64,000 bases of DNA, taken from IMG/VR virus record IMGVR_UViG_3300035670_000062, positions 1-64,000 of that record; one strand, 5' to 3'. A program made the translations under genes and the position numbers. Of the stretch, positions 3,524 through 45,888 are shown piece by piece. The notes under the pieces were generated by a model. That model did not search any database. It was not told the origin of the DNA and saw nothing but the letters and a program-made list of their open reading frames with translations. Position 1 is the stretch's first letter. The number at the start of each line of letters is the position of its first letter. This DNA comes from a virus.

Positions 3524-5161
3524 ATGAAAAAACAAGTTATAGAAAATGGCTCAACATCAAGAGAAAAATTATTAAAAGGGATAAATAAACTTTCAGATGC
3601 AGTAGTATGTACTTTAGGACCTAATGGTAGAAATGTTTTATACATTAAAGACCATCAAGTAATCTCAACAAAAGATGGAGTAAGTATAGCAAAACATATT
3701 CAAAATTTAGAAGACCCCATCGAAAATTTGGGAATTCAATTGATTAAACAAGCTTCAATCAAAACTGCTGATAATGCAGGTGATGGTACTACTACATCAA
3801 CGTTATTAGCTTCAAAAATGGTAAATGAGGGTGTAGTTAGACTAAATAATGGTGCTAATGCAATTGACATTAAAAGAGGAATTGATTATGCAGTAGAGAA
3901 AGTAATTAATGAAATTAAAAATGTTTCTCAACCTATAAAATCTCAAGATCAATTAGAACAAATAGCAACAATTTCAGCTAATAATGATGAATCAATTGGA
4001 AAATTAATTTCAACAGCATTAGAAAAAGTAGGAAGAGAAGGTATTGTACATATTGAAAATTCAAAAACAGGAGAAACTTATTTAGAAACAGTTGAAGGTA
4101 TGCAATTCGATAGAGGATATAAATCCCCTTATTTTGTAACTAATAACAATACTATGAGTTGTGTTTTGAATGATGTTTATATATTAATAGCAGATTATAA
4201 ATTTACACAAGTAAGAGAACTATTACCTATTTTAGAAAGTGTTTCTAGTGCAAATAAATCTTTATTAATCATTGCTGAAGATATTGATAATGAAGCATTA
4301 GCAACTTTAATAGTAAATAAAATGAGAGGTATCCTTAAAGTTTGTGCTGTTAAAGCTCCTGATTTTGGGGAAAGAAAAAAATTAATTTTAGAAGATCTTG
4401 CTGTATTAACTGGAGGTCAAGTTTTTTCACCTGAAAAAGGAATGAAATTAGATAAATTTAGTTGGGAATGGTTTGGTGAAGCGAGAGTAGTAACAGTAGG
4501 AAAAGAAAAAACAACTATAATTGATGGAAAAGGTAAAGAAAAAGACATTAATGATAGAATTGAAGAATTAGGTAATCAAATTGGTTTAGCACAAACTCCA
4601 TTTGAAAAAGAAAGATTACAAGATAGAATATCTAAATTTATTGGAGGTGTTGCAATTGTTCATGTTGGTGGAATGACTGAAACTGAGATGTATGAAAAGA
4701 AAGATAGAGTTGATGATGCTTTACATGCTACAAAAGCTGCAATTGAAGAAGGTATTTTACCTGGTGGTGGTGTTGCTTTATTAAAAGCATCTCTTAAATT
4801 AAATGACATCCCAGAAAAAAGTTCAGATTTCAATTTTGGTGTTAGTATTGTTAAAAAAGTATGTAAATCTCCTTTCATCCAAATATTAACAAATGCAGGG
4901 TATGATAATTTAAATATTATAAATCATTTAAATAAAATATTAGAAGATGGAAATGCTTGGTCTGGTTTTGATATTAAAACTAATCAACTCATAGATATGA
5001 AAGAAATGGGTATTATTGATCCTTTAAAGGTTACTAAAAACGCTTTATTAAATGCTTCATCAATTGCTGGGACTATATTATTAACTGAATGTGTAGTGGT
5101 TGATAGGAATGATGATGAAAAAGAAGATAATGGAGTTGATTTGAGTGCTCTAGGTATGTAA
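3524..5161 (+). CDS. groEL: Chaperonin GroEL
   Basis: 545 residues, standard length. The ATP-site motif GDGTTTSTLLASKMV (about residue 86), the apical segment VEGMQFDRGYKSPYFVTN and the GILPGGGVALLKA motif are all present. The C-terminal tail ends DLSALGM rather than the flexible Gly-Gly-Met repeats of host GroEL, so the cavity floor differs. It follows groES by four bases and ends at a clear terminator. Likely role: folding of virion proteins. A complete phage-encoded GroES-GroEL pair is uncommon. Confidence 0.96.
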   Translation: MKKQVIENGSTSREKLLKGINKLSDAVVCTLGPNGRNVLYIKDHQVISTKDGVSIAKHIQNLEDPIENLGIQLIKQASIKTADNAGDGTTTSTLLASKMVNEGVVRLNNGANAIDIKRGIDYAVEKVINEIKNVSQPIKSQDQLEQIATISANNDESIGKLISTALEKVGREGIVHIENSKTGETYLETVEGMQFDRGYKSPYFVTNNNTMSCVLNDVYILIADYKFTQVRELLPILESVSSANKSLLIIAEDIDNEALATLIVNKMRGILKVCAVKAPDFGERKKLILEDLAVLTGGQVFSPEKGMKLDKFSWEWFGEARVVTVGKEKTTIIDGKGKEKDINDRIEELGNQIGLAQTPFEKERLQDRISKFIGGVAIVHVGGMTETEMYEKKDRVDDALHATKAAIEEGILPGGGVALLKASLKLNDIPEKSSDFNFGVSIVKKVCKSPFIQILTNAGYDNLNIINHLNKILEDGNAWSGFDIKTNQLIDMKEMGIIDPLKVTKNALLNASSIAGTILLTECVVVDRNDDEKEDNGVDLSALGM

Positions 5162-9047: not shown

Positions 9048-9080
9048 TTTGGCTCTGTTAAGAGCCATTCGTATCTTTAT
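9048..9080 (+). promoter_or_regulatory. Class I promoter with spacer dyad
   Basis: TTTGG at 9048 and TATCTTTA at 9072 (24 nt apart). The spacer holds GGCTC...GAGCC, a 5-bp inverted repeat. It reads into the nuclease gene at 9096. Confidence 0.75.
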
Positions 9081-14504: not shown

Positions 14505-14537
14505 CTTGGCTACCTGAATGATGTTACGTATCTTTAC
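14505..14537 (+). promoter_or_regulatory. Class I promoter, GATGTT subclass
   Basis: CTTGG at 14505 and TATCTTTA at 14529, 24 nt apart; spacer GCTACCTGAATGATGTTACG, like the promoters of the NAD-related genes. Reads into 14564. Confidence 0.7.
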
Positions 14538-16446: not shown

Positions 16447-16831
16447 ATCTTTCTACCGTACGCTATATGTAACAATAATTTATCATGGTGTATGGTTATC
16501 GCGAAGTTGAATGTATGTAGTTGCGGGGTATTTCCCGCGTACATTGTTCACCATACGGTATGTATGCGTAATTATTATGTATATAGAATGCGCGTTGATA
16601 TCATCGTATATGTATGTAGTGGGTAAGATGTAATTATACTAAAACAGCCAGATCCAATACCCCTTACGCGTCGAAGCATATATATGTATATACCCCAACG
16701 TCCCACACATAAAGTTTACAAATGTGAAATGTTTGTAAAGACCCAAATTACGTAAAAGATTCTTCTTAAAAAAAAGTAGCGATCGACATTGATATATACT
16801 TATATATTTTAAAAACACTTACGTGAGGATA
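16447..16831 (+). ncRNA. Structured intergenic region, candidate RNA
   Basis: No gene in 385 bases. Nested complementary arms at 16490-16496/16550-16556 (GTATGGT/ACCATAC), 16510-16515/16540-16545 (AATGTA/TACATT) and 16523-16527/16534-16538 (GCGGG/CCCGC) predict one long hairpin. TACCGTA at 16454 can instead pair with TACGGTA at 16554, which would exclude the outer arm. A second hairpin TTTACAAA/TTTGTAAA lies near 16710-16735. The region is CpG-rich for this genome. It could be a non-coding RNA, an mRNA 3' element or a switch. Confidence 0.45.
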
Positions 16832-16864
16832 CTTGGCTACGTAGACGATGTTTCGTATCTTTAT
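16832..16864 (+). promoter_or_regulatory. Class I promoter, GATGTT subclass
   Basis: CTTGG at 16832, TATCTTTA at 16856. Its spacer GCTACGTAGACGATGTTTCG is identical to that of the promoter at 19278, which suggests shared control of the genes they drive. Confidence 0.78.
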
Positions 16865-16885: not shown

Positions 16886-17737
16886 ATGAAAACATTAAAT
16901 TTAGTAAATATTGAACGAAGTGATATAAAATATCGTATTGATGAATTCCCTGATGGACAACAACAAGTTGTAATAGACACAGTAATTTACATTAGTAATG
17001 AACTTATTGTTGTAAAGTCTCGTTTAAATAACTTTCAAGATCTTGAACTTATTATTTGTGCTACTAAATCGTTACGTAATCTTGGAGTTAAAGAAATTCA
17101 TCTTTATACTCCATATTTTTTAGGTAGCCGAAGCGACAGACAGTTTGAAGAAGGAAGTAATAATTATCTTCGTGATGTAATTTGTCCTATTATCAACAGT
17201 CTTAACTTTGAATCTATAACTGTATTAGATCCTCATAGTGATGTATTAGAAGCTTGTTTAAATAATTTCAGAAAAAAACCAAACTCAGCATTAGTTAAAT
17301 TTGCTTTATATGATTTATATGAAGACATACCTTCTAAACAAAATTTCATTTTAATATCACCAGACGCAGGCGCAAGTAAAAAAATCTACAAGTTAGCCGA
17401 GCAAATTGATTACAAAGGAGACGTGATTACTTGCAGTAAAGATAGAGACGAAAAAGGTAAGTTAACTAAATGTGTTGTACCCTCTATACCATCAGGTAAA
17501 GACATAATCATTGTAGACGATATTTGTGATGGAGGGGCTACTTTTATCAACATTGCCAAAGAAATTAGAAATACTGAAGGATTTAATAATAAAATATGTC
17601 TCATTGTAACTCATGGTATATTTTCTAAAGGATTTAATGAGTTGTCTGAGTATTTTGATAATATATATTGTACAAATAGTTATTCAAATGTAAATGTAGG
17701 TCCTGGTTTTGTTAAACAGTTAGAAACATTTATGTAG
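16886..17737 (+). CDS. PRPP-synthetase-like kinase (Prs or Adps)
   Basis: 283 residues, start taken at ATG 16886 because an upstream in-frame start would lie inside the promoter. It has the Prs fold: YTPYFLGSRSDRQFEEG (like the flexible-loop region), VLDPHSDVLE (ATP/metal His), ISPDAGASKKI and the ribose-phosphate loop IIIVDDICDGGATF. It is shorter than typical Prs (about 315). Next to a NAMPT-like gene, such short Prs-like phage proteins include Adps, which makes ADP-ribose pyrophosphate in the NARP1 NAD+ rebuilding pathway. PRPP synthesis is the alternative. Confidence 0.82.
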   Translation: MKTLNLVNIERSDIKYRIDEFPDGQQQVVIDTVIYISNELIVVKSRLNNFQDLELIICATKSLRNLGVKEIHLYTPYFLGSRSDRQFEEGSNNYLRDVICPIINSLNFESITVLDPHSDVLEACLNNFRKKPNSALVKFALYDLYEDIPSKQNFILISPDAGASKKIYKLAEQIDYKGDVITCSKDRDEKGKLTKCVVPSIPSGKDIIIVDDICDGGATFINIAKEIRNTEGFNNKICLIVTHGIFSKGFNELSEYFDNIYCTNSYSNVNVGPGFVKQLETFM

Positions 17738-17742
17738 GGATG

Positions 17743-17775
17743 TTTGGTTACCTGAGTGATGTTTCGTATCTTTAT
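17743..17775 (+). promoter_or_regulatory. Class I promoter, GATGTT subclass
   Basis: TTTGG at 17743, TATCTTTA at 17767; spacer TTACCTGAGTGATGTTTCG. Drives the NAMPT-like gene separately from the gene upstream. Confidence 0.75.
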
Positions 17776-17794
17776 ATTAACAAATAAATAAAAA

Positions 17795-19270
17795 ATGAGT
17801 TTAAAAATTAATCCTTTACTGATGACAGATGGATACAAAACAAGTCATAGACTTATGTATCCACCAAAAACAACTCTTGTATATAGTAATTATACTTGTA
17901 GAAGTGCTAAATATATGCCTGACATAGCTAAAAATGTTGTTGTGTTTGGCATTCAATATACATTTAGATATATTGATGACATATTCAGAAATGAATTTTT
18001 TAGTAGAGACAAATATCAAGTATGTCAAGAAGCTAAACAATATTTAAGTTCTTATTTAGGGACTGATTATGATGTATCACATTTTGAGGAATTACATGAT
18101 TTAGGTTATTTACCTATTAGGGTGAAGGCTTTGGAAGAAGGTACAGTTGTTCAAACAGGTATTCCTTTGTTTACTATTGTAAATACCCACTCCGATTTCT
18201 TTTGGATAACTAATTTTTTAGAAACTCTTATATCTACATTAATTTGGAAACCTGTACATTCAGCTTCCTTAGCTTATGGTTATAAAAAAATATTAACTAA
18301 ATATGCTGAAGAAACGGGTATAGATCCTATGTTTGTAAATTTTCAAGGACATGATTTTAGTTTTAGAGGCATGCAATCCCCAGAAGCTGCTATTAGTTCA
18401 GGAATGGGATTTTTAACATCTTTTATGGGAACCGATACATTACCTACTTTACAAGCTATAAAATATTATTATGGTGATGATAATGTAGGATTTAGCGTTC
18501 CTGCATCTGAACATAGTGTAATGTGTTCCCATGGTAAAGAAGGGGAAATAAATACTCTTAAATATCTTATGAAACAGTATCCTACAGGTATATTATCTGT
18601 AGTAAGTGATACATGGGATTTATGGAAACTTATTACAGAATATTTACCTCAACTTAAAGAAGAAATTTTATCAAGAGATGGTAAACTTGTAATTAGACCT
18701 GACAGTGGTGATCCTGTTGACATTATTTGTGGTCAACAATTTGATTATAAAATAAAAACTTCTAAACCAGAACATAAAGGAGTAATTGAACTTCTTTGGG
18801 ATATATTTGGTGGTACTGTAAATGAACAGGGTTACAAAGTGTTAGATCCTCATATTGGTTGTATTTATGGCGACAGTATTACTCCCGAAAGAGCTATTCA
18901 AATAGCTGAAAGACTTAAAGCTAAAGGATTTGCTAATCAAGTAGTATTAGGGATTGGTAGTTATTCTATGGGGTATGCCACTAGAGATAATCAAGGAGGT
19001 GCTGTTAAATCTACTTATGTAGAAGTTGATAATGAAGCTAGACCTATATTTAAAGATCCTATTACTGATGATGGTACTAAAAAATCTGCTAAGGGCTTAC
19101 TAATGGTTACTAAAGATGATTTAGAAAATTATATAGTTTTATCTAATGTTAGTAAAGGAGAAGAATCACAAGGGTTATTGAAACTTATTTACGAAGATGG
19201 TAGTTTTTATAATACTACTACATTAAATGAAATAAGAAATAGATTAGAAAGTAATATTAAACATTCATAA
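17795..19270 (+). CDS. NAMPT-like nicotinamide transferase (NadV or Namat)
   Basis: 491 residues, full NAMPT length. Family landmarks: NPLLMTDGYKTSHRLMYP at the N-terminus, FQGHDFSFRGM, SVPASEHSVM (catalytic His region), VVSDTWDLW, VIRPDSGDP and VLGIGSYSMGY. The enzyme joins nicotinamide to an activated ribose: PRPP in NAMPT (giving NMN) or ADP-ribose pyrophosphate in Namat (giving NAD+ directly). Paired with the Prs-like gene upstream, NARP1 is a strong candidate; this pathway counters NAD-depleting defences. Telling the two apart needs active-site comparison. Confidence 0.9.
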   Translation: MSLKINPLLMTDGYKTSHRLMYPPKTTLVYSNYTCRSAKYMPDIAKNVVVFGIQYTFRYIDDIFRNEFFSRDKYQVCQEAKQYLSSYLGTDYDVSHFEELHDLGYLPIRVKALEEGTVVQTGIPLFTIVNTHSDFFWITNFLETLISTLIWKPVHSASLAYGYKKILTKYAEETGIDPMFVNFQGHDFSFRGMQSPEAAISSGMGFLTSFMGTDTLPTLQAIKYYYGDDNVGFSVPASEHSVMCSHGKEGEINTLKYLMKQYPTGILSVVSDTWDLWKLITEYLPQLKEEILSRDGKLVIRPDSGDPVDIICGQQFDYKIKTSKPEHKGVIELLWDIFGGTVNEQGYKVLDPHIGCIYGDSITPERAIQIAERLKAKGFANQVVLGIGSYSMGYATRDNQGGAVKSTYVEVDNEARPIFKDPITDDGTKKSAKGLLMVTKDDLENYIVLSNVSKGEESQGLLKLIYEDGSFYNTTTLNEIRNRLESNIKHS

Positions 19271-19277
19271 TGAAATG

Positions 19278-19310
19278 TTTAGCTACGTAGACGATGTTTC
19301 GTATCTTTAC
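19278..19310 (+). promoter_or_regulatory. Class I promoter, GATGTT subclass
   Basis: TTTAG at 19278, TATCTTTA at 19302; the spacer GCTACGTAGACGATGTTTCG repeats that at 16832 exactly. Reads into the UV endonuclease gene. Confidence 0.72.
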
Positions 19311-19369: not shown

Positions 19370-20254
19370 ATGACTCAAACAATAGGATACGCGTGTATAT
19401 CTTCTCTACTAAAAGAAAATACCACCAACAGAACAATTAGACTAAAAACATATCAAGAAAAAGGACTAGCTTTAGTGTCTAACTTGGCATTACAAAATGT
19501 AAAAGATCTAGTAAAACTAATAGAACACAATGAAAAAAATGCTATTAGATTTTTTAGAATGTCTTCCAACATATTCCCATGGCAGTCTACTTACGAGTTA
19601 GAAGACCTAGTTGACTACGATGAAATTTACGCTACATTAAAAATTGCTGCTTCATTAATTAAAAAATACAATCATCGTATTACAACTCACCCAGGACAAT
19701 TCAACGTTTTAGCTTCTCCTAAAAAGTCTGTCGTAGACAGAACAGTCAGAGACTTACGAGACCACGCCATCATAATGGACATACTTGAATTAAGCCAAAC
19801 ACCATACAATAAAATCAACATTCACGTAGGTGGTGCATATGGTGACAAAGACAAAGCATTGAAAACATGGTGTGAAAATTTCCAACTCCTACCAGACAAT
19901 GTCAAAAGTAGACTAACTATTGAAAATGACGACAAGGCTGCTAGTTTTAGTGTTAAAGATTTACTGTACATTTATGAAAATTGCAATGTACCTATAGTAT
20001 TCGATTATCATCACCATACGTTTAACACTGGAGGATGCAGTGAGGAAGAAGCGTTTAATTTGGCGTACAATACGTGGCATGGCATTAAACCTATATGTCA
20101 CGTTTCTGAACCAAGAGATCTAAAAAAGCCTAGATCACATCATGATTACATTTTGAAAAAGGTAAATACATACGGTAAAGAAGTAGATTTAATGTTTGAA
20201 TGTAAACAAAAAGACGCAGCTGTGTTGAAATACAGAGAACTTTTTCTTACATAA
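19370..20254 (+). CDS. uvsE: UV damage endonuclease (UvdE family)
   Basis: 294 residues, TIM-barrel. Signature segments: GYACIS at the start, RFFRMSSNIFPW, ITTHPGQFNVLASP, INIHVGGAYGDK, LTIENDDKAAS, VFDYHHHTFN and HVSEPR, which supply the metal-binding His, Glu and Asp residues. It nicks DNA 5' of UV photoproducts to start repair. Codons use C more often than neighbours, hinting at a separate origin. It shares its promoter subclass with the two NAD-linked genes. Confidence 0.9.
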   Translation: MTQTIGYACISSLLKENTTNRTIRLKTYQEKGLALVSNLALQNVKDLVKLIEHNEKNAIRFFRMSSNIFPWQSTYELEDLVDYDEIYATLKIAASLIKKYNHRITTHPGQFNVLASPKKSVVDRTVRDLRDHAIIMDILELSQTPYNKINIHVGGAYGDKDKALKTWCENFQLLPDNVKSRLTIENDDKAASFSVKDLLYIYENCNVPIVFDYHHHTFNTGGCSEEEAFNLAYNTWHGIKPICHVSEPRDLKKPRSHHDYILKKVNTYGKEVDLMFECKQKDAAVLKYRELFLT

Positions 20255-31810: not shown

Positions 31811-31843
31811 TTTGGCTCCCCAGGGAGCCATTCGTATCTTTAG
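31811..31843 (+). promoter_or_regulatory. Class I promoter with spacer dyad
   Basis: TTTGG at 31811, TATCTTTA at 31835; GGCTCC-CC-AGGGAGCC dyad in the spacer. Gene start taken at 31873, after the promoter. Confidence 0.8.
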
Positions 31844-33225: not shown

Positions 33226-33258
33226 TTTGGCTCCCCAGGGAGCCATTCGTATCTTTAG
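33226..33258 (+). promoter_or_regulatory. Class I promoter with spacer dyad
   Basis: TTTGG at 33226, TATCTTTA at 33250; the whole element repeats that at 31811 base for base through the dyad. Confidence 0.8.
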
Positions 33259-33697: not shown

Positions 33698-33730
33698 TTT
33701 GGCTCCACAAGGAGCCATTTGTATCTTTAG
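33698..33730 (+). promoter_or_regulatory. Class I promoter with spacer dyad
   Basis: TTTGG at 33698, TATCTTTA at 33722; GGCTCC-ACAA-GGAGCC dyad in the spacer. Drives the DNA ligase gene. Confidence 0.78.
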
Positions 33731-37856: not shown

Positions 37857-37889
37857 TTTGGCTCCTCAGGGAGCCATTCGTATCTTTAT
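37857..37889 (+). promoter_or_regulatory. Class I promoter with spacer dyad
   Basis: TTTGG at 37857, TATCTTTA at 37881; GGCTCC-TC-AGGGAGCC dyad. Reads into 37919. Confidence 0.8.
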
Positions 37890-39315: not shown

Positions 39316-42300
39316 ATGAAACTAACAAAACTTTTAAGTCTATTTATAACGTTTATTGCTGTATTTATTAATATTAATACATACGCACAATACAACACAG
39401 GATTCGAAGGGTCAGATGAAACTAAAACATCCTATGCTTCTGGTGATGTTATTTTAAGTGGTATTCAATGGAATATGACTGAGGCATTGATTGGTACTCT
39501 TTCTAATGATAAAAAGATTGGTAGTCGATCCATGCGTATGAGGAGAAATGGTACTATTCCAGGAACAGCAACTATGTTGAATGATAAACCTGATGGGATT
39601 GGTACTATATCCTTTAAATATGCTAGATTTGGTACTGAAACAGGTCAGCCAACGTTATTTGTGGAATATAGTATAGATGGGGGTATTTCATGGACTCAGG
39701 CAGGATCATCCATAACATCTTTCCCAAATAGTTTAACAAATTGGTCAGCAACTATTAATCAGGGTGGGAATGTTAGGATTAGATTTAGAACAAATACTGG
39801 TGGTACCAGTCAAAGAAGGTTTAATATAGATGACATTCAATTAACCAACTACATACCAGCATGCTATCAACCAACTGCTTTTGGAACAGCATCAGCTCCA
39901 ACAACTCCAACTCCCCTTACAATAAGCACGTGTACATACGCAGGAGAATACAACACTATAAACTCTATAGTCTCAGGTCAAACTTATCAATTCGAATCTA
40001 GTATTGGAAGTGATTGGCTTGTTTTAACTGATGCTTCAAATAATCTTATTACTTCAGGCACCTCTCCTATAAATTGGACAGCAAACTTTAGTGGTACAGT
40101 TAGATTACATATTAGTACTAACTCTAATTGCGGGACTCAAAATATATGCAGAACAACCAAAGTAACTTGTCTTTCTTGCATTCCACCTCCTTGCATCCAA
40201 CCAACACCATTTATATCAATTAATGCCCCAACAACTCAGTCTCAACTAACAATAAGCACGTGTACTTATGCAGGGGAGTATAACACTATAAATTCTGTAG
40301 TTTCTGGGAGTACTTATCTATTTGAGTCTAGCATTAATACAGATTGGCTTGTTTTAACTGATGCTCAAAATAACCTACTCGCATCAGGTACCTCATCAAT
40401 TAACTGGACAGCAACCTTTAGTGGTACAGTTAGATTGCATGTTAGTGTGGATAATAACTGTGGCATTCAGAATGTATGTAGAACAACTAGTGTAATATGT
40501 ACTTCATGCATTCCAGTTCCTTGTACTCAACCTACACCATATGTGTCAATAAACGCACCTACAATTCCAACTCCCCAAATCATCACCAACTGTACATACG
40601 CTGGAGAATACAATACTATAAATTCTGTAGTTTCTGGGAGTACTTATCAATTCGAATCTAGCGTTGGAACTGACTGGCTTGTTTTAACCGATGCTTCAAA
40701 TAATGTAATCGTTTCTGGAAGTTCACCTATAAATTGGACGGCAAATTTTAATGGCACAGTCCGACTTCATGTTAGTACCAACTCTAATTGTGGAACTCAA
40801 AATGTATGTAGAACAACTACTATAACATGTAACTCTTGTCAATTTCCTCCTATTATAAGCTCTTTTACTCCAACTAATACTTGCTTTAACAGCAACGAAC
40901 AAATTATCATAACAGGACAAAACTTTACAAATGTTATAAGTGTAAGTTTAGGAAACAATAATGTTCAATCATTTGTTGTAAATAGCTCAACTCAGATAAC
41001 CATTTCAATTGGTTCAAGTATGTCTGGTTTTATTACTGTAGTTACACCTGGAGGTAGTACAACTAGTTCGAGTATTTTTACAGTAAATGCATCTCCCTCT
41101 CAGTCAGTTTCGGTTATTAATGTTGGATGTTTTGGTGATTCTAGTGGAAATATTAACCTAACTCCATCAGGTGGAAGTGCTCCATATTCCTTTAGTTGGA
41201 ACAATGGCGTCACTACTGAAGACTTAACAAACGTACCCGCTGGGATATATTCAGTAATTATCACCGATCAAAATAATTGTACCACTTCAACGTCAGTAAC
41301 AATAACCCAACCAACATCAACTTTAAACGATTCTATTGTTAAAACTAATGTTCTTATTTATGGTAACTCAACAGGAGCAATAGACTTAACAATGTCGGGT
41401 GGTACAGCTCCATACACATACTTATGGTCTAACGGAGCGACCACTGAAGACCTTACTGGTCTTGCCGCAGGAACCTACACTGTAACAGTTACTGATGCTA
41501 ATGGTTGTCAGCTTATAACAAGTGTAATAATTGAAGAACCTATTGATTGTACTATTGGTGATATTGAAGGGGCTCAAATATTATGTGGTTACTCTCAAGT
41601 CAGTTACACAATAGAAATACCTTCATGTGTTGTAAACTACTATTGGAATATGCCACAAGGAATGACGATAATTGATGAGGACACTGACGTAGCTGGATAT
41701 ATTACTGTGGATGTTTCAATTGATGAGTTAGATTTTGTATCGGGTGATATAATTTTTACTGCTGTTTATAGTGGAGGTACAAGTTCAGATACACTAGCTG
41801 TTAGTCAAATTCCATTTACACCAGAATTTATAACTACGGCTACTTGTGGTATACCTAATACTACTGTCACTTTTGAAGTAGAAGAAATTGAAGGTGTTGA
41901 AAGTTATGTTTGGACTCAACCAAATTTATCTAGTTTATTGTTTGGGCAAAATACAGACTCAGTTCGTGTAAAATTTGGTTCATTGTTTAATAGTGGAACA
42001 CTTTCGGTTGTTGCTACCAACCTTTGCGGTTCGAGTCCTGCTGCTGAATTCTTTATTTTAGCACCTCCCGCTACTGCAAATAATATTCAAGGACCAACTA
42101 CAATATGTTCAGTGGAGCCTTCACAACTTTATTATGTGGATTCGGTTGCCAATGCTTCCTACTACATTTGGGGTATGCCAAACGGAGCAACAATTATTTC
42201 AAATCCAGCTACTAATGATTCGGTTAATGTAATGTTCCAAAACTTTAGTTCGGGTGTAATTTCTGTGAAATCAGCAAATACCTGCGGAAGTTCCTCAATG

Positions 42301-43689
42301 AAATACTTAACTGTAACGGCTCCTTCTATTGCTGCACCAACGGGAATATCTGGTCCACAATCAGTTTGTTCGTATGTAGGAACAGGTCAGATTGTCAATT
42401 ACACAACCCCAATGGTGTCTGGAGTGACTAATTATATTTGGTCTATGCCTTCAGGAGCAACTATAAGTAATGGTTTGGGAACCAATACAATTGGTGTTCA
42501 GTTTGCTGCTGGATTTACAGGTGGTAACATAGGAGTGTCATTAAGTAATGGCTGTAGTTTAAGTCAACAATCAACATTACAATTATTGGGTGTGTCTGCA
42601 GGAGGTGCACCTCAATATATAGATCTTAATGGACAGTCTAGTGTTTGTTCGTTCATCGGTACTGGCAGCACTGTTTATAGTGTTACTCCTCCAATAGGAG
42701 CAAACAGTTATGTTTGGTCGGTACCTAATGATGCAACTATCATCAGTGGTTCAGGTACATCAAGTATTACTGTTTCGTTTGCTTCAAGTTTTGTAACCGG
42801 TACGATATCTGTTACCGTAATAACGAATTGTGGGACAACCTATCAACAATCTAAAACAGTGACAAAAATCCCTTCTGATGCTGGAGCGATAACTGGACCA
42901 AATTGTATTTTACTTGGATCAACTTATACCTATTCAATAGCAGCAGTTTCTGGAGCCACATCTTATCACTGGACGGTACCTTCAAATGCCACTATTACTA
43001 GTGGACAATGGACTTCAAGTATTACTGTACAATACTCAAATTCGTTTTCTGGTGGGGATATGACAGTTACACCTATTAATAGTTGTGGTAATGGAACATC
43101 CTCAACTATTACTATAGGTTTGGCAATAGTTGTACCGAGTCAAATTTTTGGTGCTACTTCGGTTTGTTTAGGTCAAACATTGACCTACTATGTTACACCT
43201 GTACCTACTGCCACATACTATATTTGGGCTGTTCCAGTTGGTATGGCTATAATTGGATATCAATATGGTGATAGTATCGTTGTGTCAGTAGATAATCAAT
43301 TTATTTCAGGTTTAATTTCTTGTAAATCTGTAAATGACTGTGGCAGTAGTCCAATGCGATACTCAAACACTATTTCAACCGGCAACTGTTCTACGGCTAT
43401 ATCAACATCACCTCAAGTTATTACTAAAATAAGTATAAATGAAAATAATGAAGTTGGATTATATCCAAATCCAACAAATGATAAAACATTTATTAAACTA
43501 ATAAACAATGAAGAAAAGTTAATAAAAATTATAATTTATGATAATAGTGGTAGATGTATATTTAATCAAGTTATAGATATAGATGGAGATTCAAACTTTA
43601 TAGATTTATCTATGTATAATTCTGGGGTTTATTTAGTTTTTATTATAACAAGTAATAGCAAGGATATATATAGAGTAATTAAAATTTAA
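39316..43689 (+). CDS. Large secreted surface protein with T9SS sorting domain
   Basis: 1457 residues. Signal peptide 1-24 (LLSLFITFIAVFININTYA). Domains: a jelly-roll-like region (25-178); three repeats of about 105 residues (about 183-505) sharing TYAGEYNTINS and DWLVLTDA; an IPT/TIG-like domain (about 513-590); two SprB-type repeats ending AGIYSVIITD and AGTYTVTVTD; six or so PKD/Ig-like domains with YIW/NYIWSMP motifs; and a type A T9SS C-terminal domain (about 1388-1457, GLYPNPTNDKTFIKL, YNSGVYLVFI). This is the form of Bacteroidota adhesins exported by type IX secretion. Codons use more C and G than the rest, so host origin is likely. Confidence 0.88.
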   Translation: MKLTKLLSLFITFIAVFININTYAQYNTGFEGSDETKTSYASGDVILSGIQWNMTEALIGTLSNDKKIGSRSMRMRRNGTIPGTATMLNDKPDGIGTISFKYARFGTETGQPTLFVEYSIDGGISWTQAGSSITSFPNSLTNWSATINQGGNVRIRFRTNTGGTSQRRFNIDDIQLTNYIPACYQPTAFGTASAPTTPTPLTISTCTYAGEYNTINSIVSGQTYQFESSIGSDWLVLTDASNNLITSGTSPINWTANFSGTVRLHISTNSNCGTQNICRTTKVTCLSCIPPPCIQPTPFISINAPTTQSQLTISTCTYAGEYNTINSVVSGSTYLFESSINTDWLVLTDAQNNLLASGTSSINWTATFSGTVRLHVSVDNNCGIQNVCRTTSVICTSCIPVPCTQPTPYVSINAPTIPTPQIITNCTYAGEYNTINSVVSGSTYQFESSVGTDWLVLTDASNNVIVSGSSPINWTANFNGTVRLHVSTNSNCGTQNVCRTTTITCNSCQFPPIISSFTPTNTCFNSNEQIIITGQNFTNVISVSLGNNNVQSFVVNSSTQITISIGSSMSGFITVVTPGGSTTSSSIFTVNASPSQSVSVINVGCFGDSSGNINLTPSGGSAPYSFSWNNGVTTEDLTNVPAGIYSVIITDQNNCTTSTSVTITQPTSTLNDSIVKTNVLIYGNSTGAIDLTMSGGTAPYTYLWSNGATTEDLTGLAAGTYTVTVTDANGCQLITSVIIEEPIDCTIGDIEGAQILCGYSQVSYTIEIPSCVVNYYWNMPQGMTIIDEDTDVAGYITVDVSIDELDFVSGDIIFTAVYSGGTSSDTLAVSQIPFTPEFITTATCGIPNTTVTFEVEEIEGVESYVWTQPNLSSLLFGQNTDSVRVKFGSLFNSGTLSVVATNLCGSSPAAEFFILAPPATANNIQGPTTICSVEPSQLYYVDSVANASYYIWGMPNGATIISNPATNDSVNVMFQNFSSGVISVKSANTCGSSSMKYLTVTAPSIAAPTGISGPQSVCSYVGTGQIVNYTTPMVSGVTNYIWSMPSGATISNGLGTNTIGVQFAAGFTGGNIGVSLSNGCSLSQQSTLQLLGVSAGGAPQYIDLNGQSSVCSFIGTGSTVYSVTPPIGANSYVWSVPNDATIISGSGTSSITVSFASSFVTGTISVTVITNCGTTYQQSKTVTKIPSDAGAITGPNCILLGSTYTYSIAAVSGATSYHWTVPSNATITSGQWTSSITVQYSNSFSGGDMTVTPINSCGNGTSSTITIGLAIVVPSQIFGATSVCLGQTLTYYVTPVPTATYYIWAVPVGMAIIGYQYGDSIVVSVDNQFISGLISCKSVNDCGSSPMRYSNTISTGNCSTAISTSPQVITKISINENNEVGLYPNPTNDKTFIKLINNEEKLIKIIIYDNSGRCIFNQVIDIDGDSNFIDLSMYNSGVYLVFIITSNSKDIYRVIKI
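39870..40845 (+). repeat. Three tandem coding repeats of about 315-325 bp
   Basis: Three copies of the segment encoding TCTYAGEYNTINS through CRTT, one after another, with high nucleotide similarity (for example AATTCTGTAGTTTCTGGGAG in copies two and three). Prone to recombination and copy-number change. Confidence 0.75.
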
Positions 43690-45855: not shown

Positions 45856-45888
45856 TTTGGCTCCACAGGGAGCCATTCGTATCTTTAT
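45856..45888 (+). promoter_or_regulatory. Class I promoter with spacer dyad
   Basis: TTTGG at 45856, TATCTTTA at 45880; GGCTCC-AC-AGGGAGCC dyad. Drives the DUF932 gene. Confidence 0.8.

Follow-up and report, generated by a model that had tools for sequence, protein, structure and literature searches.

The stretch of DNA analysed here (the window) comprises the first 64 kb of a virus record of 113,098 bases. It carries a Prs-like gene and a NAMPT-like gene, arranged head to tail with a gap of 57 bases, whose products match ribose-phosphate pyrophosphokinase (PHROG_619, 4.9e-62, for 16886-17737) and nicotinamide phosphoribosyl transferase (PHROG_448, 2.8e-189, for 17795-19270). These matches bear out the side-by-side pair that the initial annotation had read at this locus. 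Both products are predicted to be the enzymes of a NARP1 pair, with adps lying within 10 genes of Namat (here adjoining). The features of the locus are the following:

16833..16863, + strand: putative promoter element of the Adps gene, TTGG-N19-TATCTTTA, of the Bacteroidota -33/-7 type (repeat search, family of 16, four-copy alignment)
16886..17737, + strand: predicted Adps gene, Prs-like, 283 aa (PHROG_619, loop signature, AlphaFold2 model)
17743..17774, + strand: putative promoter element of the Namat gene, TTTGG-N19-TATCTTTA (repeat search, alignment, family)
17795..19270, + strand: predicted Namat gene, NAMPT-like, 491 aa (PDB matches, residues, tree, fold match)
19278..19309, + strand: copy of the promoter element ahead of a UvdE-like endonuclease gene (repeat search, alignment)

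A GTG start at 16823 for the Adps gene was dropped, given that the longer reading frame merely translates the promoter repeat, and the ATG at 16886 is preferred. Downstream of Namat lies the UvdE-like endonuclease gene (19370-20254), which is outside the NAD+ pathway. The phage is large and also encodes a tyrosine recombinase (167-964; Phage_integrase, 2.2e-33), a GroEL-like chaperonin (3524-5161; PHROG_5725, 4.1e-147), a baseplate gene, a replisome and 20 tRNA genes.

A repeat search with 0 mismatches, for which 0 copies are expected by chance, found the same element at 16844-16863 and 17755-17774, and also at 14517 and 19290. It is clear that both genes of the pair stand behind elements of one family, as had been proposed from the sequence. 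This family comprises 16 promoter-like elements of the form TTTGG-N18/19-TATCTTTA, each placed 24-68 nt upstream of the start of an open reading frame. The promoter of Bacteroidota has TTTG at -33 and TAnnTTTG at -7, and the form of the elements resembles it; a pattern of this type gave 29 overlapping matches versus 1.2 expected from shuffled sequence, while a scan for sigma-70 promoters gave no excess over shuffles. In six of the 16 elements (9048-9079, 31811-31842, 33226-33257, 33698-33729, 37857-37888 and 45856-45887) an inverted repeat, GGCTCC-N4-GGAGCC or a variant of it, lies exactly between the -33-like and the -7-like parts, and the NARP1 promoters have a different conserved spacer in its place. 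The two types of spacer may mark two classes of expression, or an operator.

Shine-Dalgarno-like sequences precede only 4 of the 104 open reading frames, and the stretches upstream are rich in A. Furthermore, a protein of 1457 aa (39316-43689) ends in a C-terminal Por secretion tail, the tail by which proteins of Bacteroidota are addressed to type IX secretion. Given the form of the promoters, the scarcity of Shine-Dalgarno sites and this type IX secretion cargo gene, the host is likely a member of the Bacteroidota. The 1457-aa protein also contains seven PKD-like domains and SprB repeats ahead of its type IX sorting domain, and its gene lies in a stretch richer in G+C, beside an endolysin-like gene. 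A phage gene for an adhesin-like surface protein exported by the type IX system of the host would be unusual.

The product of the first gene keeps the catalytic residues of Prs (H117, D160, K185, R187 and D211-D212), and its AlphaFold2 model (pLDDT 93.5) has the Prs fold, with a Z of 26.1 to 6nfe over 266 residues. At the position of the ribose-5-phosphate loop it reads DDICDGGATF, versus approximately DD-(I/M)-(I/V)-(D/S)-T-(G/A)-G-T in the Prs of E. coli and in most solved Prs, where this loop is the binding site for the 5-phosphate of the substrate ribose-5-phosphate. The pattern DD[IL]x.[GYF]G.TF, which the window protein matches, is shared by 60 of the 62 Adps-like proteins encoded beside Namat genes and by none of 71 Prs; since the pattern is defined here, not in the literature, and was drawn from the Adps set on which it was scored, the first count is descriptive and it is the zero among Prs that is informative. 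The Prs controls are mostly chromosomal and were obtained by scanning genome contigs with Adps, to which they are 21-30% identical. No structure of an Adps is known (PMC12774641). With glycine in place of Thr/Ser, the loop would have space for the AMP part of ADP-ribose (ADPR). The assignment of the first gene to Adps rather than to Prs is well supported at the level of sequence.

The second protein finds its highest scores in the PDB with HdNadV (9ke8, 473 bits) and with the Namat of the Bacillus phage SPbetaL1 (9w5x/9w5w, 466 bits), and human NAMPT scores approximately 231 bits. A control Nampt from Rhizobium phage B1VFA, encoded beside a NadM-type adenylyltransferase, scores 438 bits with the Nampt of Xcc and 243-245 bits with Namat/NadV. 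In a maximum-likelihood tree of 47 rows, the window protein falls in a Namat clade of 39 rows (support 100/99), together with SPbetaL1, FADO, Staphylococcus phage ISP, ICP1 and other Adps-linked Namats. Human NAMPT, that of Xcc (Xanthomonas) and the phage Nampts linked to adenylyltransferases (B1VFA, GAP32, Yut3) are outside this clade. The best fold match of the AlphaFold2 model (pLDDT 92.0) is Namat 9w5w (Z 47.4, rmsd 1.4, 469 residues), with NAMPT at a Z of approximately 42. Nonetheless, NadV of Haemophilus ducreyi, which is described as NMN-forming and has the motif GAQTYQRNTRD without the clamp aromatics, also falls within the Namat clade. Clade membership alone is, therefore, insufficient to indicate the use of ADPR-PP, and the argument for Namat rests on the clamp residues, which are present in the window protein.

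The consensus of the Namat clamp helix is GSX-phi-X-phi-X-phi-TRD, where the aromatics at positions 3 and 7 stack on the adenine (PMC12774641). The window protein reads GSYSMGYATRD, with tyrosines at both stacking positions (Y390 and Y394). Its clamp loop, S-A-K39-Y40, is of the type with a lysine followed by a stacking fourth residue, the accepted forms being an arginine at the third position, or a lysine or tyrosine there together with a stacking fourth residue. The catalytic core is also kept (F188, D214, R301, D303 and H240, the counterparts of Phe189, Asp215, Arg306, Asp308 and the catalytic His). The crystal structure of SPbetaL1 Namat with NAD+ provides 20 contacting residues (PMC12774641), which map here to D12, Y14, K39, F188, S189, R191, D214, A237, R301, D303, G359, D360, S361, G388, S389, Y390, Y394, T396, R397 and D398. 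Seventeen of the 20 are identical in the two proteins, the substitutions being R40->K, A362->S and F392->Y; K39, S361 and Y390 are often seen in other Namats linked to Adps, and each change recurs in other NARP1 phages.

The comparison of active sites that the initial annotation had called for, made here by sequence, shows that the adenine clamp of the window protein (S389, Y390, Y394, T396, R397 and D398, with K39-Y40) is of the Namat type. In the numbering of the substitutions above, Ser391 followed by an aromatic at 392 is found in all 57 Adps-linked homologues and in none of the Nampt set of five, and Tyr or Phe occupies 396 in 51 of the 57; in the Nampt set the three positions hold Gly, Ala/Gly/Lys and Lys/Glu/Gly, respectively. 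The Nampts thus have neither the aromatic pair of the clamp nor the equivalent of Ser389, and all five have glycine at both positions where the window protein has the Namat-type Ser189 and Ser389. These observations make the assignment of the second gene to Namat rather than to Nampt well supported. In the middle of the clamp helix the window protein has Met-Gly versus Tyr-Gln in most Namats, and with four other loci (L020, L021, L022 and L078) it forms a subclade in which the helix reads Tyr-Ser-Met/Leu-Gly-Tyr-Ala versus Phe-Thr-Tyr-Gln-Tyr-Asn in most. There is a slim chance that this subclade prefers a phosphorylated or otherwise modified ADP-ribose donor, which would lead to NADP+ or to a variant of NAD+.

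Among known systems, the pair is most readily compared with NARP1 of SPbetaL1 (PDB 9w5w, 9w5x), with which it shares the gene pair and its order, a Namat that is 49% identical, the NAD+-contacting residues, the adenine clamp and the lack of an adjoining NMN adenylyltransferase gene. The two differ in that the Adps proteins are only approximately 29% identical, with the loop DDLSSFGGTF in SPbetaL1; in that SPbetaL1 has one operon, while here separate promoter elements precede the two genes; in the clamp loop (Lys-Tyr here, Arg in SPbetaL1) and the Met-Gly in the middle of the clamp helix; and in the host, which here is probably a member of the Bacteroidota. Adps and Namat with the clamp motif are also encoded by the crAss-like phages DAC15, which likewise infects a member of the Bacteroidota, and cr85_1, and by Leptolyngbya phage Lbo-JY46, whose Adps is the closest named relative of the window Adps (55% by BLAST). 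In these three phages, however, Namat comes first, with intervening genes in two of the three, the Namats are only 48-50% identical to that of the window, and no shared neighbourhood was seen. The NARP2-like Nampts of Rhizobium phage B1VFA and Cronobacter phage GAP32 have the NAMPT fold and the catalytic core in common with the window protein, but they are linked to an adenylyltransferase with no Adps in the stretch, lack the clamp aromatics, are 33-34% identical and belong to a separate clade. H. ducreyi NadV (PDB 9ke8, plasmid pNAD1; L188:3828-5315) is 48-50% identical, and pNAD1 differs in having no adps gene. Given that this NadV lies in the Namat clade without the clamp aromatics and without an adps partner, its ancestor is suggested to have been a Namat that reverted to PRPP.

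The sample of homologous loci numbered 89, including some near-identical ones and three Nampt controls. Of these, 67 have an adps-like gene in the same stretch, always on the same strand; Adps comes first in 51 and Namat in 16, with the two genes adjoining or up to 2.9 kb apart, and the neighbouring genes are otherwise mostly unshared. In the Adps tree the window joins locus L098 (72-73% identity), which has a Namat of the Leptolyngbya-phage group, while in the Namat tree it joins L020 (73%), which has an Adps from a distant group (33-35%). An Adps tree constrained to unite the window with L020 is rejected (p-AU 6.6e-5), and so is a Namat tree constrained to unite it with L098 (p-AU 1.0e-5). 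The discordance of the two trees (AU p < 1e-4 both ways) indicates that the partners have been exchanged separately between phages. Such an exchange is in keeping with enzymes whose sole connection is a diffusible intermediate; it also fits the pull-down of SPbetaL1 Adps with Namat, which was negative and gave no stable complex (PMC12774641). A megaplasmid of Persicobacter (Bacteroidota; L189:2163-4473) carries an unannotated pair of Adps and Namat with the clamp motif intact. Two further loci (L092:3953-6388 and L081:3992-6427) encode, directly after an Adps-like gene, an 812-aa protein in which a Namat part is accompanied by approximately 300 extra residues.

From the characterised relatives, both reactions and a role against host defence can be proposed for the pair. 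Adps would take pyrophosphate from ATP and attach it to the free ribose of ADP-ribose. The adenine of the resulting ADPR-PP would be held by the aromatic clamp of Namat while nicotinamide displaces the pyrophosphate, forming NAD+ directly. Host defences that act as NADases release ADPR and nicotinamide, and the pair would thus allow the phage to refill NAD+ and to escape the block. The sequence gives no hint that Thoeris, rather than another such defence, is the one answered.

Three other explanations have to be weighed. A canonical two-step salvage, where the phage Prs makes PRPP, Nampt makes NMN and an NMN adenylyltransferase of the host completes NAD+, would agree with the folds of both proteins, which are those of Prs and NAMPT, with the NMN-forming description of the H. 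ducreyi relative in the clade, and with the observation that SPbetaL1 Namat retains the formation of NMN from PRPP in vitro (PMC12774641). It is nonetheless very unlikely, and a canonical Prs and Nampt pair was rejected, in view of the clamp aromatics and the two serines of the second protein, the loop signature that none of the 71 Prs displays, and the separate clade of the phage Nampts linked to NMN adenylyltransferases. The initial annotation had noted that no NMN adenylyltransferase gene is visible next to the pair, and this holds further afield: PF01467, which covers these enzymes and was found in 14 of 14 control genomes, was not found in the 113,098-base record. This too counts against the two-step route, since NARP2 and canonical systems encode the adenylyltransferase with Nampt, although the record may be a fragment and such a gene could lie outside it. 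The preference for NARP1 over a two-step NMN route is upheld by the clamp residues, the Namat clade, the fold match to 9w5w and the Adps loop signature. It is extremely improbable that the Prs-like gene encodes an independent PRPP synthetase serving nucleotide synthesis and lies beside Namat by chance. The phage does encode a ribonucleotide reductase small subunit and a thymidylate synthase, and the Adps and Namat trees disagree, but an adps-like gene recurs near Namat on the same strand in loci of varied phages (the 67 of 89 given above), and the loop signature tracks the linkage to Namat.

The enzymes could also be Adps and Namat and yet serve mainly, as auxiliary metabolic genes, the general supply of NAD+ during infection. 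This is consistent with the neighbouring genes, which belong to DNA metabolism (UvdE, RadA-like ATPase) and among which no anti-defence gene was recognised, and with the presence of NARP1 on bacterial chromosomes as well (PMC12774641). Against it, ADPR is a product of NADases and not a normal intermediate of NAD+ synthesis, and Kongming and SPARSA are both systems from which related pairs rescue cells (PMC12774641), which makes a mainly metabolic role unlikely. Among partners that could feed or use ADPR, no NADAR, macro domain or Nudix was found in the record; the RyR/RyDEP query had no match in the record either, but the RyR query matched no control, so that its negative result carries no weight. 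Taken in full, with the role against defence included, the reading of the locus as NARP1, in a phage whose host is probably a member of the Bacteroidota, is given a probability of roughly 0.84.

The pathway is a known anti-defence pathway, of which this pair is a convincing further member, with nothing new in kind. With it, NARP1 is seen complete, with both enzymes, in a probable phage of Bacteroidota, and the comparison provides short tests that can be made on sequence: a loop of the DDICDGGxTF type separates Adps from Prs, and the clamp aromatics together with serine for glycine at two phosphate contacts separate Namat from Nampt. Such tests should help to correct many of the 'Prs' and 'NAMPT' labels found in the annotation of phages.
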